Positions 1,150 to 58,457 of a DNA stretch of 64,000 bases are shown here, in pieces (position 1 is the first letter of the stretch; each line of letters starts with the position of its first letter). The DNA is from Jiangella alba (lineage in GTDB: Bacteria; Actinomycetota; Actinomycetes; Jiangellales; Jiangellaceae). The stretch is from contig NZ_FNUC01000004.1 in assembly GCF_900106035.1 (NCBI RefSeq), forward strand, positions 2,852,001-2,916,000, in the 5' to 3' direction. The position numbers and the translations under genes were made by a program. The notes beneath the pieces were generated by a model that was not told the DNA's origin, did not search any database, and was given only the letters and a program-made list of their open reading frames with translations.

Positions 1150-1186
1150 GGTGACGAGGCCGCCAACTGTTGGCGCTGGTGTCAAC
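1150..1186. repeat. nested palindrome, dispersed copy 2
   Basis: Identical to the copy at 950-986; it lies inside the second unit of the tandem duplication. Confidence 0.85.
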
Positions 1187-13178: not shown

Positions 13179-13571
13179 GCTGCTTCTGCGCCGAGGGGTG
13201 GGGCGGCCTCATGTGACGCCTTCGTCATCCGACGTGCCGCCACGTCGTCGCGGTGCTCGAGCGGGACTTCGGTTGACCTCGAGCCTGCCGCTGCCGCGGG
13301 GGCGCCGTGTTCCGGCCTGGCCGGACCGCCCGCAGGTCCGCGGTAGTGGTCTCCGCACCGTGACACCAGCGCCAACAAGTGCCGTCCTTGTCACCCGCCG
13401 GCGACAACGATCGGCCGCAGCCGACCCCGAGGCGGCGACCGTTGTCTCCGCACTCTCGGCCGTGAGCACAGTACGGCGTGTAGCCGTTGCCGACCATCAG
13501 GTACTCCAGCTCCGGTATCGGGATGCGGGCCAGCAGGGTCGGAGGTTTCTCGCGTCGGCCGGCCAGGCACC
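13179..13571. other. intergenic region without a supported gene
   Basis: About 390 bases between convergent genes. It holds one copy of the nested palindrome (13359-13395). A minus-strand 90-codon open frame (13497 to 13225) would give a Cys-rich peptide, but its third-position GC is mixed, there is no ribosome-binding site and it runs through the palindrome; I do not call it. Confidence 0.6.
13359..13395. repeat. nested palindrome, dispersed copy 3 (degenerate)
   Basis: On the minus strand it reads GGTGAC-N7-GCACT-T-GTTGG-N7-GTCACG: same length, centre and arm spacing as the other copies, with one inner half-site decayed. The downstream CGCTGGTGTCA is identical to the copies at 950 and 1150. 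Confidence 0.7.
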
Positions 13572-27837: not shown

Positions 27838-28677
27838 ATGACCGGACACTGCGCCAGACTGTTCCGCATGAAGCCGCCCACCCGTCCCGCCGACGCGCCG
27901 TCGCGGCGCACGCTCGCCCGTGAGGCGCGGCAGCAGGCGATCGTGTCGCACGTGGTCGCTCACGGCGTCGCCTCGGTCTCGGAGCTGACCGAGCTGACCG
28001 GGGCCAGCGTCATGACGGTCCACCGCGACCTCGACGAGCTGGCCCGCCGCGGCGTCGTGCGGAAGTTCCACGGCGGCGTCTCCGCGCAGCCGTCGACGGT
28101 GTTCGAGAGCAGCTCCGAGTACCGGCTCCGGGTGCAGGTCAAGGAGAAGGAGGCGCTGGCGTCGGCGGCGCTGGGCATGATCGAGCCGGGCATGTCGATC
28201 ATGCTCGACACCTCCACCACCAACCTCTTCGTCGCCCGCAGCCTCGGCGACCTGCGGCTCGGCCCGCTGACGGTCGTGACGAACTACCTGCCGATCATGC
28301 AGGTGCTGAAGACGACGCCGGACATCCACCTGATCGGCGTCGGCGGCGACTACAACGCCACCCACGACGCGTTCCTGGGGCTCAGCGCCATCGAGGCGAT
28401 CGGCGCTCTCACCACCGACATCGTCTTCCTCAGCACGTCTGCCATGACGATGTCGACCACCTATCACCAGGAACCTGAGATCGTTACCGTCAAGCGCGCG
28501 ATGATGGCGGCCGGCCGGCGGCGCATCCTGTTGATGGATCCCACGAAGCTCAACCGCACCGCGCTGCACCGACTGGCTCCGACGTCGGAGTTCAACGCCG
28601 TGGTCGTGAACTCCGCGGTGGGTGAACGCGCGCTGGCTGAACTGCGCGATCACACCATCGTGGTGGCGGTCTCCTGA
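27838..28677 (+). CDS. DeoR/GlpR-family regulator (2)
   Basis: A 279-residue repressor, paralogue of the one at 24735. HTH: QQAIVSHVVAHGVASVSELTELTGASVMTVHRDLDELARRGVVRKFHGG; sensor domain with GMSIMLDTSTTNLFVARSL and LLMDPTKLNRTALHRLAP. Start ATG 27838 is used; ATG 27868 would also give an intact HTH, and neither has a strong ribosome-binding site. It is divergent from the FGGY operon and upstream of the ABC-transporter operon, whose promoter carries similar GTTAA repeats. Confidence 0.88.
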   Translation: MTGHCARLFRMKPPTRPADAPSRRTLAREARQQAIVSHVVAHGVASVSELTELTGASVMTVHRDLDELARRGVVRKFHGGVSAQPSTVFESSSEYRLRVQVKEKEALASAALGMIEPGMSIMLDTSTTNLFVARSLGDLRLGPLTVVTNYLPIMQVLKTTPDIHLIGVGGDYNATHDAFLGLSAIEAIGALTTDIVFLSTSAMTMSTTYHQEPEIVTVKRAMMAAGRRRILLMDPTKLNRTALHRLAPTSEFNAVVVNSAVGERALAELRDHTIVVAVS

Positions 28678-28812: not shown

Positions 28813-28974
28813 GTGTCGCGCCTGGATGCGGCGGGGCAGTCGCGCGCCGCGTCGAGGTTGGGTGCCGTGTCGCGCCTGGATGCGGCGGGGCAGTCGCACG
28901 CCGCGTCGAGGTTGGGTACCGTGTCGCGCCTGGGCGCGGCGGGGCAGTCGCGCGCCGCGCCGTAGCTGGCCGCC
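28813..28974. repeat. three 54-bp tandem repeats plus a decayed fourth
   Basis: Units start at 28813, 28867 and 28921 with GTGTCGCGCCTGG and contain CGGCGGGGCAGTCGC; a diverged fourth begins at 28975 (GTGTGGCACC). The first two units differ at only a few positions. Confidence 0.85.
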
Positions 28975-33218: not shown

Positions 33219-34318
33219 CGGAACTTTCGCGGCGGGCGTTCGTGCGGCTCGGCGGTGCGGCGGCGGGTGCCGGCGCGCTGGCGGCGGCGGGGACGACGGC
33301 AGCGGCGGCGGCCGGGCGGGGCGCGGCAGCGTCGGCCGAGCGCACTGCGGCGTCGGCCGGGCTGCCCGGACGGGCCCGTCCGTTCGACCTGACCACGCCG
33401 GCCGAGCCGTTCCTCGTCAACGTCGGCCTGCACGACCAGCGGACGATCATGCAGTCGTTCGCCGTCGACAGTCCCGGCGGGCACGTCTACGTCGTGCAGA
33501 TCACCCAGGGCGGGACCGTCCTCCCCGGCGACGCACCCGGCGACGAGGCGTACGCGCGCCGGGTCGCTCGCGGTGACCTCACGCTGTCCAAGCTCGACCT
33601 CGCCGGGAACCTGCTCGGGCACATGTATCTCAAGCGGTTCGGGCACGGCGTCGCGATCGGTGTGGAAAGGTCCGGCCGCGACGTCCACCTGTGGACAGAG
33701 GTCGACGCCGTCACCGAGGGCACGAGCGGGTGGGGGACGCGGCTGCTGCGGTTCCCGTTCGCCGACGGCACGGTCATCGACGCCGACGCGACGCCGGGCC
33801 TGCAACGGCGCGAACTGCTGCCCGGCGTCGACCGCACCACCTGCAACGTCGACCCCGTCCACCGCACGCTGGTCATGCGGTACCGCCGCGACGGCGCGTT
33901 CCGATACGCGCTCTTCGACCTCGACGACGTGCGGCGCGAGCAGCCGGCGTACGTGCCGGTCGCCGACGTCGCGCAGCCGGACGTGCTCAGCGGCGGCCCG
34001 GTCTTCCAGGGCTACGCGACGTACGGGCGCGACCTCTATCTCTACGACGGGCAGATCTACAGCGACACCAATCCGCCGTCGGGGCAGGGCAACGCGCACC
34101 TGACCCGGGTCGACTGGCGCACCGGCGCCGTCGCGGAACGGATCCGCACGACCGACGGGCACGAACTGCACCGGCGCGAACCCGAAGGCCTCGGCGTCTG
34201 GCTCGCCTCGCCGGGACGGCGGCCGACGGCGCGGCTCGGGTTCGCGTTCGGCACCAGCGTGACCGCCAACCCGGACGACGACCGCCTCTGCACGATCCTG
34301 ACGAAGCGGCTCGGCTGA
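33215..34318 (+). CDS. Tat-exported TagC/P68 RBP-like beta-propeller protein
   Basis: A 367-residue protein with a twin-arginine signal (LSRRAFVRLGGAAAGAGALAAAG) and an Ala-rich mature start. The body reads like the phage receptor-binding/TagC beta-propeller seen in actinobacterial teichoic-acid biosynthesis protein C: TIMQSFAVDSPGGHVYVVQI, LSKLDLAGNLLGHMYLKRFGHGVAIGVE, HLWTEVDAV and GNAHLTRVDWRTGAVAERI. It probably binds or cleaves wall teichoic acid outside the cell. Last gene of the operon. Confidence 0.75.
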   Translation: MTELSRRAFVRLGGAAAGAGALAAAGTTAAAAAGRGAAASAERTAASAGLPGRARPFDLTTPAEPFLVNVGLHDQRTIMQSFAVDSPGGHVYVVQITQGGTVLPGDAPGDEAYARRVARGDLTLSKLDLAGNLLGHMYLKRFGHGVAIGVERSGRDVHLWTEVDAVTEGTSGWGTRLLRFPFADGTVIDADATPGLQRRELLPGVDRTTCNVDPVHRTLVMRYRRDGAFRYALFDLDDVRREQPAYVPVADVAQPDVLSGGPVFQGYATYGRDLYLYDGQIYSDTNPPSGQGNAHLTRVDWRTGAVAERIRTTDGHELHRREPEGLGVWLASPGRRPTARLGFAFGTSVTANPDDDRLCTILTKRLG

Positions 34319-34367
34319 GGACGTGAGCCGGTGACCCCCGGGGTAGGGGCGGGGTGGTGTCGGGTGA

Positions 34368-35190
34368 GGTGACGTAGGTGCCAACTGTTGGCTCTCAGGT
34401 CACCCTCTCCGCACGCACCTCGTCCTGGCCGCGGACGTCGACGGAGCCCGGGGCTGGGGGCTGGGGTGGTGTCGGGGGAGGTGACGTGGGCGCCAACTGG
34501 TGGCGCTCAGGTCACCCTCCCCGCACGCACCTCGTCCTGGCCGCGGACGTCGACGGAGCCAGGGGCTGGGGCTGGGGCGGGGGCTGGGTGAGGTGACGTG
34601 GGCGCCAACTGTTGGCGCTCAGGTCACCCTCTCCGCACGCGCCTCGTCCTGGCCGCGGACGTCGACGGGGGCTGGGGGCTGGGGGTGGTGTCGGGGGAGG
34701 TGACGTAGGTGCCAATTGTTGGCGCTCAGGTCGCCCTCTCCGCACGCACCTCGTCCTGGCCGCGGACGTCGACGGGGGCTGGGGGCTGGGGGTGGTGTCG
34801 GGGGAGGTGACGTAGGTGCCAATTGTTGGCGCTCAGGTCGCCCTCTCCGCACGCACCTCGTCCTGGCCGCGGACGTCGACGGGGGCTGGGGGCCAGGGGT
34901 GGTGTCGGGGGAGGTGACGTAGGTGCCAATTGTTGGCGCTCAGGTCACTCTCCCCGTACACACCTCGTCCTGGCCGCGGACGTCGACGGGGGCTGGGGGC
35001 CAGGGGTGGTGTCGGGGGAGGTGACGTAGGTGCCAATTGTTGGCGCTCAGGTCACTCTCCCCGCACGCACGTCGTCCTGGCCGCGGACGTCGACGGGGCC
35101 AGGGGCTGGGTGAGGTGACGTAGGCGCCAACTGTTGGCGCTCAGGTCGCCCTCTCCGCACGCACCTCGTCCTGGCCGCGGACGTCGACGG
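34368..35190. repeat. eight-copy tandem array of the nested palindrome
   Basis: Palindrome starts: 34368, 34480, 34592, 34699, 34806, 34913, 35020 and 35114 (spacings 112, 112, 107, 107, 107, 107, 94). Each has GGTGAC-N7-CCAAC/T-T or G-N-TGG-N7-GTC, followed by a conserved spacer beginning CTCTCCGCACGCACCTCG and a Gly-rich CTGGGG tract of variable length. Copies 4-7 have CCAAT and lose symmetry in the last arm (GTCGCC or GTCACT). Region 34319-35213 has no supported gene; all frames in it only translate the repeat. Confidence 0.92.
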
Positions 35191-35213
35191 AGGACGCGCG
35201 GGCCCGCCGTCGG

Positions 35214-35624
35214 TCAGGGCAGGACGGCGGTCGCCTCGATCTCGATCAGCTGCCCGGGAAACGCCAGCGCCGCCACGCCGACCAGCGTGGCCGCGGGCGG
35301 GCCGTCGGGGCGGACGGCGACGTCGGAGGCGGCGACCAGGCCGGCGTGGACCTGCTCGAGGCTGTGCTCGTCGTAGCCGGCGACGAAGATGCCGAGCCGG
35401 ACGACGTCGGCGAAGGTGGCGCCGGCCGCCGCGAGCGCCGTGGCGACGTTGCGCAGCGTCTGCTCGGTCTGCGCGGCGAGGTCGCCCGCGCCCACCAGCG
35501 CGCCGGTGGCGTCGCACGGCACCTGGCCCGCGACGACGACCTGACGCGAGCCGGTGGCGACGACGACCTGGGAATAGGTGGGCGGCTGGGGGAGCCCGGG
35601 CGGGTTGATCAACTGCATCGGCAT
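35214..35624 (-). CDS. RidA family (YjgF/YER057c/UK114) protein
   Basis: A 136-residue RidA-fold protein: [68 protein letters not shown]. RidA proteins hydrolyse reactive enamine/imine intermediates; the conserved Arg of the RidA subfamily near residue 105 is not evident, so it may belong to another Rid group. It ends 23 bases from the palindrome array. Confidence 0.87.
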
Positions 35625-56284: not shown

Positions 56285-57147
56285 CCGGCCTGCCGGAGCG
56301 GAGGATCATCGACGACATGGCAGCTCAGCCCGCCACCGTCGCCCGTCCGACCATCCGCGAACTGGCCGCGCTCGGCGACCTCGAGGAGGTCTACGCGCTG
56401 TTCGACCGGATCTGGCAGCCGGACCGGTCGAACCCGCCCGTCACCGTCGAGCACCTGCGCGCGCTCACCCACGCCGGCAACTACGTCGCCGGCGCCTACG
56501 ACGGCGACGAGCTGATCGGCGCCTGCGTCGGGTTCTTCGCCGCACCGCCGGGCCGGTCGATGCACTCGCACGTCGCGGGCGTCTCGTCCGCCGCGCGCGG
56601 CCGGCACGTCGGGTTCGCGCTGAAGGCGCACCAGCGCGACTGGGCGCTGGAGCGCGGGCTCAGCGAGATCACCTGGACGTTCGACCCGCTGGTGCGCCGC
56701 AACGCCTACTTCAACCTGGCCAAGCTGCAGGCCCGGCCGGGCGACTACCTCGTCGACTTCTACGGCGACATGGACGACGCGATCAACGGCGGGCAGGGCA
56801 GCGACCGGCTGCTGATGCGCTGGCGGCTGGACGCGCCGGAGGTGGTGGCGGCCGTCGCGGCCGGCGGCGGGACCGGCGCGGTGGTGCCTTCCGACGCCGT
56901 CGCGGCGCTGGCCGAGTCGCCGTCTGGCCGCGCGCTGGCCGCGCCCCGGTCGTCGTGGGCGCGGGCGGCGCGGGTGACGGTCGCGACCCCGCCGGACATC
57001 GAGGCGCTGCGCGCCGCCGACCCGGCCGCGGCCCGGCAGTGGCGCGGCGCGATGCGCGACGTGCTCGGCGAGCTGATCGGTGACGGGGCGCGGGTGAGCG
57101 GGTTCACCCGGTCCGGAACGTACGTGGTGGAGAGGACGGACACGTGA
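56281..57147 (+). CDS. GNAT acyltransferase (COG3375-like; candidate D-amino acid N-succinyltransferase)
   Basis: A 288-residue GNAT protein longer than usual: IRELAALGDLEEVYALFDRIWQPD, NYVAGAYDGDELIGACVGFFAAPPG, HSHVAGVSSAARGRHVGFALKAHQRDWALERGLSEITWTFDPLVRRNAYFNLAKLQARPGDYLVDFYG. This pattern matches the COG3375 group found next to NSAR genes, in which a member transfers succinyl from succinyl-CoA to D-amino acids. It lies between the M20 and the racemase genes with four-base overlaps. A second start (MAAQPATV, 36 bases later) is possible. Confidence 0.85.
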   Translation: MTGLPERRIIDDMAAQPATVARPTIRELAALGDLEEVYALFDRIWQPDRSNPPVTVEHLRALTHAGNYVAGAYDGDELIGACVGFFAAPPGRSMHSHVAGVSSAARGRHVGFALKAHQRDWALERGLSEITWTFDPLVRRNAYFNLAKLQARPGDYLVDFYGDMDDAINGGQGSDRLLMRWRLDAPEVVAAVAAGGGTGAVVPSDAVAALAESPSGRALAAPRSSWARAARVTVATPPDIEALRAADPAAARQWRGAMRDVLGELIGDGARVSGFTRSGTYVVERTDT

Positions 57148-58253
57148 AGATCACCGGGTTCGAGCTGCGCCGGATCGCAATGCCGCTGGTAGCGCCGTTC
57201 CGGACGTCGTTCGGCGTCGAGACCGAGCGGGACGTGCTGCTGATCCGCGCCGCGACCCCCGACGGCGACGGCTGGGGCGAGTGCGTCGCGATGAGCGAGC
57301 CGCTGTACTCGCCCGAGTTCGCCGACGGGGCCGCGCAGGTGATCGAGCGGTTCCTCGCGCCCCGGCTGTTCGCCGCCGGCGACCTCGGGCCGCTGGACGT
57401 CGCGCGGCTGCTCGAGCCCGTCCGCGGGCACCGGATGGCGAAGGCGGCGCTGGAGACGGCGGTCCTGGACGCGTGGCTGCGGGCGCGCGGCGAGTCGTTC
57501 GGGTCCTACCTCGGCGCCGTGCGCGACCGCGTGCCGGCCGGCGTCTCCGTCGGGATCATGGACTCGATCCCCGCCCTGCTGGACGCCGTCGCCGGGTATC
57601 TCGACCAGGGCTACCTGCGGATCAAGCTGAAGATCGAGCCCGGCTGGGACGTCGCGCCGGTGCGGGCGGTGCGGCAGCGCTTCGGTGACGACCTGTTGCT
57701 GCAGGTCGACGCGAACGCCGCCTACACGCTGGCCGACGCCCGGACGCTGGCCGCCCTCGACGCGTTCGGGCTGCTGCTGATCGAGCAGCCGCTGGCCGAG
57801 GACGACCTGCGCCAGCACGCCGTCCTGGCGCGGCTCCTCAGCACCCCGATCTGCCTCGACGAGTCGATCGAGTCGGCCAAGGACGCCGCCGACGCGCTGC
57901 TGCTCGGCGCCTGCTCGATCATCAACGTCAAGCCGGGCCGGGTCGGGGGCTACCTGGGGGCGCGGCGCATCCACGACCTCGCGGTGGCGCACGGCGCGGC
58001 GGTCTGGTGCGGCGGCATGCTGGAGACCGGCCTCGGCCGCGCGGCCAACATCGCGCTGGCGGCGCTGCCCGGCTTCACCCTCCCCGGCGACACGTCGGCG
58101 TCGGACCGCTACTTCGCCCAGGACGTGACGGCCCCCTTCGTGTTGGACGGCGGCCACGTGGCGGTGCCATCCGGCCCCGGCCTCGGCGTCGAGCCGCTGC
58201 CCGACGTCCTGGCCGCCCTGACCACCTCGACCAGCTGGCTCCCGGCCGCCTGA
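57144..58253 (+). CDS. OSBS/NSAR-like enolase-superfamily enzyme (N-succinylamino acid racemase candidate)
   Basis: A 369-residue muconate-lactonising-subgroup enolase protein. Acid/base KxK in RIKLKIEPG near 160; metal ligands Asp of VDANAAY (~189), Glu of LIEQPL (~213) and Asp of CLDES (~238); opposite Lys in NVKPGRVGG (~262). Members with this sequence type are o-succinylbenzoate synthase and/or N-succinylamino acid racemase. No men genes are present, and the GNAT and M20 neighbours point to NSAR function. Starts GTG, overlapping the GNAT stop. Its own stop TGA is the first codon of a 26-bp tandem repeat. Confidence 0.9.
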   Translation: MKITGFELRRIAMPLVAPFRTSFGVETERDVLLIRAATPDGDGWGECVAMSEPLYSPEFADGAAQVIERFLAPRLFAAGDLGPLDVARLLEPVRGHRMAKAALETAVLDAWLRARGESFGSYLGAVRDRVPAGVSVGIMDSIPALLDAVAGYLDQGYLRIKLKIEPGWDVAPVRAVRQRFGDDLLLQVDANAAYTLADARTLAALDAFGLLLIEQPLAEDDLRQHAVLARLLSTPICLDESIESAKDAADALLLGACSIINVKPGRVGGYLGARRIHDLAVAHGAAVWCGGMLETGLGRAANIALAALPGFTLPGDTSASDRYFAQDVTAPFVLDGGHVAVPSGPGLGVEPLPDVLAALTTSTSWLPAA

Positions 58254-58406
58254 CGAGAGGGGGTCGCTCGGCCGCCTGACGAGAGGGGGTCGCTCGGCCG
58301 CCTGACGAGAGGGGGTCGCTCGGCCGCCTGACGAGAGGGGGTCGCTCGGCCGCCTGACGAGAGGGGGTCGCTCGGCCGCCTGACGAGAGGGGGTCGCTCG
58401 GCCGCC
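58251..58406. repeat. six identical 26-bp tandem repeats
   Basis: Units start at 58251, 58277, 58303, 58329, 58355 and 58381; each opens TGACGAGAGGGGG and closes CGGCCGCC. All six are identical. The first T is the stop codon of the preceding gene. Being 26 bp, each unit shifts frame. Confidence 0.97.
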
Positions 58407-58457
58407 TTTGCAATGAGCACCCATACGCACCGGTGCGTATGGGTGCTCATTGCAAAG
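58406..58457. terminator. perfect 52-bp palindrome
   Basis: Two 26-bp arms meet at CACC|GGTG with no spacer; the left arm opens CTTTGCAATGAGCACC, the right arm is its exact complement. As RNA it makes a very stable hairpin, so it is a likely terminator of the operon in either direction, but symmetry this long could also be a recombination or protein-binding site. Confidence 0.8.

Follow-up and report, generated by a model that had tools for sequence, protein, structure and literature searches.

We assign the palindromic array in the window (the whole stretch analysed, 64,000 nt of Jiangella alba, positions 2,852,001 to 2,916,000 of contig NZ_FNUC01000004.1) to a family of dispersed palindromic elements that sit at gene ends and carry a conserved DNA dyad. 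We put the probability of this classification at about 0.85. The best-described palindromic intergenic repeats are those of proteobacteria, and such repeats are usually viewed as RNA hairpins or as RAYT products. The family described here is a palindromic gene-end repeat of high-GC actinobacteria without a Y1 transposase partner in the genome. No paper was found in a literature search for the letters of the core, and the literature searched contained no comparable family in high-GC actinobacteria.

The array occupies positions 34351–35190 of the window, between two convergent genes. It comprises eight cores on the forward strand, each with zero to two mismatches to the pattern GGTGAC-N7-CCAAC-N-GTTGG-N7-GTCACC. 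The cores lie at 34368–34404, 34480–34516, 34592–34628, 34699–34735, 34806–34842, 34913–34949, 35020–35056 and 35114–35150; the first and the third match perfectly. Start-to-start steps are 112, 112, 107, 107, 107, 107 and 94 bp. Tandem Repeats Finder called a single array over the same interval, with a period of 107 bp, 7.9 copies and 90% matches, whereas dinucleotide shuffles of the window yielded 0 core matches. The eight-copy array of the initial annotation was borne out by both pattern search and tandem repeat calling, with all eight cores at the place it had given. Both flanking genes point their 3' ends towards the array. The right one (35214–35624, reverse strand) belongs to the RidA/L-PSP family (PF01042). 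The left one (33242–34318, forward strand) is beta-propeller-like, with a match to a phage receptor-binding beta-propeller platform domain (Pfam PF21311, E 7e-14), and most genomes of the genus carry a homologue with high DNA identity.

The initial annotation had also listed single copies at 950, 1150 and 13359. The first two (950–986 and 1150–1186, forward strand) are genuine, with one mismatch each; the pair lies in a gap between tandem genes (<<) and represents a direct duplication of 200 bp. The third (13359–13395, forward strand, in a convergent gap) is real but off-type, its inner right arm reading AGTGC instead of GTTGG. The corresponding gap holds three intact copies in a sister species, and in the sister genome G010 two loci (5013614 and 5705099) look, by eye, like the 13359 variant, which could represent a minor subfamily instead of simple decay.

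Next, we searched the window's own genome (G000; 7.68 Mb, four contigs, GC-rich) for the pattern. Within three mismatches, 93 matches were found, compared with 0 for the pattern read backwards. A symmetric weight matrix was then scanned over 735 kb of this genome, covering the surroundings of the copies and contiguous stretches. It recovered 93 copies, distributed over 53 loci; the weakest of them scored 33 bits, and no site fell between 8 and 33 bits. In the 678 kb scanned of the sister genome, no site scored between 0 and 25 bits. Because these score intervals are empty, cores can be said to be either intact or absent. An off-spacing control, in which each arm had N9 in place of N8, gave one match in 257 Gb, a rough gauge of chance matching. 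The proposed constant geometry therefore holds genome-wide, as does the description of a chromosome-wide element with local amplification. About 20 multi-core arrays were present in the genome, of which that in the window is the largest.

The anatomy of the core was derived from these copies. Two conserved blocks, GKTGAC and GCCAAC, stand on the left and are mirrored on the right about one central base; in 82% of symmetrised columns this base is A or T. The flanks (TTCCGGCGT / ACGCCGGAA) show weak symmetric conservation that extends to ~17 bp on each side and falls to background beyond ~18 bp, giving the consensus TTCCGGCG[T/C]-core-ACGCCGGAA. The five arm bases between the blocks vary across elements. 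The two arms of one element nevertheless pair above permutation (141 vs 105.7 +/- 8.1 of 265 pairs), with fully paired arms at 12 loci vs 1.9 in permuted data. Subfamilies have ~120–145 bp in common. Of the 37-bp unit first described, the core and its geometry stood; weak conservation widens the unit by ~17 bp to the left and to the right, and gains and losses involve ~110–170 bp at a time. Likewise, tandem duplication of the entire unit explains the conserved spacer of the window array, but spacers differ between loci.

The position of the loci relative to genes was assessed with gene calls from our own codon-usage model rather than curated annotation. Background gaps were drawn from the same fetched regions as the loci, so that the comparison is local. 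Convergent gaps contained 29 of 52 loci vs 23% of intergenic bases (p = 3e-7), and divergent gaps contained only one of 52 vs 26% of intergenic bases (p = 4e-6). The other loci were in tandem gaps, mostly on the side of the upstream gene's 3' end. The suggested siting between genes and near gene ends was confirmed in a more specific form: the family is extragenic, clustered, and located at gene 3' ends. A bias towards 3' ends and convergent gaps is already known for stem-loop repeats generally (PMC1590033, PMC3733652). Arrays of at least two cores made up 13 of the 22 loci in tandem gaps, a larger share than the 6 of 29 in convergent gaps (Fisher p = 0.008). The GC skew of the fetched pieces was noisy, and the G010 contig does not start at dnaA.

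We examined gain and loss by comparison with close relatives. Flanks at element loci are ~93–98% identical between G010 and G000, and ~20 of the 29 G010 loci are common to both genomes. About a dozen G000 loci are syntenic in G010 but lack the element. At single-copy loci, clean presence/absence differences amounted to 113–173 bp, and in most of these sites the insert reached ~40–55 bp on either side of the core. At locus C3:1760204, a 138-bp insert occurs in G000 only, and four relatives (G010, G009, G004 and G008) have a common uninterrupted junction at which two stop codons touch. This locus was interpreted as a gain in G000 because all four relatives keep that junction. No target-site duplication was evident at this clean insertion, and boundaries were ambiguous at the other sites. 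The conserved part of the inserts is the centre, their ends being without evident conservation. Several orthologous empty sites have nearly touching gene ends and no terminator-like substitute, which implies that the element is dispensable for viability there.

The array locus itself differs between relatives, with eight cores in G000, two in G010 and none in G007, G008 and G009. The G007 locus is empty, that of G008 holds a different hairpin, and that of G009 another gene. As the sister lacks many copies at matching loci and a 138-bp gain was seen, the element is a gained dispersed unit of the ERIC/REP kind that has also been amplified in tandem. This presence/absence between close relatives supports the idea, raised in the initial annotation, of a non-autonomous repeat family. 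The series of zero, two and eight copies between the same gene pair in sister species makes both the effect of the palindrome and the choice between DNA and RNA directly testable.

Comparison with known repeat families revealed both likenesses and differences. ERIC sequences (intergenic repeat units) are ~127 bp long and occur in enterobacteria and vibrios (PMC10969869, PMC2267715). They are small non-coding intergenic palindromic units of ~100–170 bp with tens to hundreds of copies, they vary in presence between strains, and they are sited at 3' ends (PMC10969869, PMC2267715), much as the Jiangella units with their 113–173 bp differences. The Jiangella element belongs to another phylum and has no apparent sequence relation to ERIC. 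Moreover, ERIC is predicted to form one long stem-loop and to act at the RNA level (PMC2267715); in the Jiangella element, by contrast, it is the dyad sequence and not the fold that is conserved. The REP, PU-BIME and REPIN families resemble the element in being palindromes of 20–40 bp that prefer convergent and unidirectional gaps and form big clusters via tandem reiteration that includes flanking DNA (PMC3733652). REPs have a variable loop, in contrast to the conserved centre of the Jiangella element. The association with Y1 (RAYT) transposases is limited to the GTAG superfamily of REPs (PMC3733652). No GTAG or CGTC tag was present at the palindrome end in the consensus flanks, and the Y1 transposase profile PF01797 had 0 matches in G000, compared with positive results in 5 of 14 control genomes; a REP/RAYT identity was ruled out on both counts. 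MITEs are similar as non-autonomous, discrete intergenic inserts, but the terminal inverted repeats are not conserved in the element, the centre being conserved instead, and a standard MITE was rejected for this reason.

Several other identities were also discarded. The GC stem has no following U tract and 0 terminator-like sites were found at 34200–35300, which rules out an intrinsic terminator. Rfam covariance models matched only two tRNAs in the window. The spacers of the window array are homologous, excluding CRISPR, and GTTGGCR misfits GTTRRRY, the attC core consensus, which speaks against an integron attC site. A phage or plasmid origin was dismissed since viral contigs held no exact match and plasmids no full match.

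The element is restricted to one bacterial family among the sampled genomes. Of the genomes sampled in its own family, 10 of 22 contained the exact pattern, compared with 0 of 372 genomes from 47 other families of the same class. Within the genus, copy number ranged from 0 to about 90 per genome, and the core was absent or nearly so in three members (G004, G011 and G001). In more distant genera, the 37-bp spacing was kept with altered inner arms, e.g., GGCAAC-N-GTTGAC. In another genome, G006, most of the sampled copies were embedded in a dispersed non-coding repeat of ~400–500 bp.

The initial annotation had left the selected feature as either DNA binding or RNA structure. We compared orthologous loci, finding that the 24 dyad positions of the cores differed by 2.8% at single-copy loci and 4.2% at array loci. 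The corresponding values were 16.7% and 34% for the variable arms and centre, and 23% and 40% for the adjacent 17-bp flanks. The comparison was ungapped, which makes the flank values somewhat high; the low dyad divergence is partly ascertained, since loci were found via the motif; and the array figures depend on the choice of the best copy. Among single changes, 37 were pair-breaking and 34 pair-making, and compensatory changes numbered only five. Sequence identity, rather than pairing, is conserved in the dyad.

An RNA hairpin at mRNA 3' ends, either a terminator without a U tract or an mRNA-stabilising stem like enterobacterial REPs, would agree with the placement of the loci at 3' ends and in convergent gaps. 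It would also predict the palindromy of the five-base arms, which was found above permuted levels, and a stable stem is seen in many copies (folding z -3.5), with five of the eight tested units reaching z below -5. Against such a hairpin, folding of the remaining three units is no stronger than that of shuffled sequence, the array has neither a U tract nor a terminator-like site, and complementarity of the flanks is no higher than in permuted data. Tandem loci read in the transcribed orientation exhibited no preference for G-U over A-C (19 vs 17, a test of modest power), and it is base identity that is kept instead of pairing. We consider an RNA hairpin quite improbable. As the RNA-hairpin tests were negative, the core resembles a DNA site recognised by a protein, and symmetric sequence-specific DNA recognition would fit better than RNA structure. 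Hence, the DNA half of the earlier proposal gained support from the constraint on the dyad, and the RNA half did not.

What the element does can be proposed from its sequence and distribution. The 37-bp core would be a symmetric DNA recognition site, with half-sites GKTGAC and GCCAAC mirrored about a central A/T, bound by a putative dimeric or dimer-of-dimers protein. A discrete unit of ~110–170 bp enters intergenic 3' ends, its spread possibly aided by a putative enzyme, and once resident multiplies or shrinks locally via tandem duplication. Once bound, the site would separate neighbouring gene ends as a boundary. Most likely it would be a roadblock halting RNA polymerase that arrives from either direction; a topoisomerase or nucleoid-protein site relieving convergent supercoiling is the less likely form. 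A bidirectional roadblock or boundary fits the location and symmetry of the element and would explain why copies are intact. We give an even chance to the core being a DNA site of relevance to the host, and hold a role as roadblock or boundary at gene ends as a tentative, somewhat doubtful suggestion. Still more speculative, and on balance unlikely, is a mobile protein-bound boundary system at gene ends, in which a family-specific protein would recognise at least four half-sites in the nested dyad and the copies would act as roadblocks or supercoil sinks with a strength tuned by tandem copy number.

The main rival to a host-relevant site is a purely selfish MITE-like or REP-like repeat with no host function, the 3'-end bias of which would reflect tolerance of insertions. 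Recent gains and copy-number changes speak for it, as do the patchy occurrence within the genus, the length common to subfamilies, and the embedding of the G006 copies in a longer dispersed repeat. Yet the dyad is near-intact at shared loci while neighbouring bases diverge, decayed relics are almost lacking, G000 has no Y1 transposase, and the inserts are conserved at the centre rather than the ends, with no evident target-site duplication. Overall, a selfish repeat seems rather unlikely to us. The initial annotation offered, among other readings, a nucleoid, partition or replication-linked site; the distribution of such a site would be tied to oriC or ter. A symmetric, strictly spaced DNA site found throughout the chromosome speaks for such a role. 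Against it stands the (near) absence of the core in three genomes of the same genus and from many syntenic loci of close relatives. Within its own family, 12 of 22 sampled genomes also lack the exact pattern, as do all 372 from the other 47 families; a general core role of this kind is not supported, and we regard any such site as very improbable.

Several unrelated palindromes use the same 3' slots as the element. In the gap of locus C3:909333, other species carry other palindromes; the G009 ortholog (L254), for example, has three tandem copies of a different one, approximately TCACCTGATCGT...ACGATCAGGTGA, in the same gap. Hairpins built on ATGATCATGG / TTGATCATGGAGAAGG were observed in gene-end gaps of G008 (L136) and G006 (L093–L112). 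One of them fills the gap of the array locus, and those of G006 share the dispersed repeat with the 37-bp core. The window contains two further tandem repeats. A 54-bp unit is repeated 2.7 times (94% matches) at 28813–28959, in the gap past gene 27868–28677. A perfect array of the 26-bp unit CGGCCGCCTGACGAGAGGGGGTCGCT (58243–58407; 6.3 copies, 100% matches) begins at the end of gene 57144–58253 and extends into the next gap.
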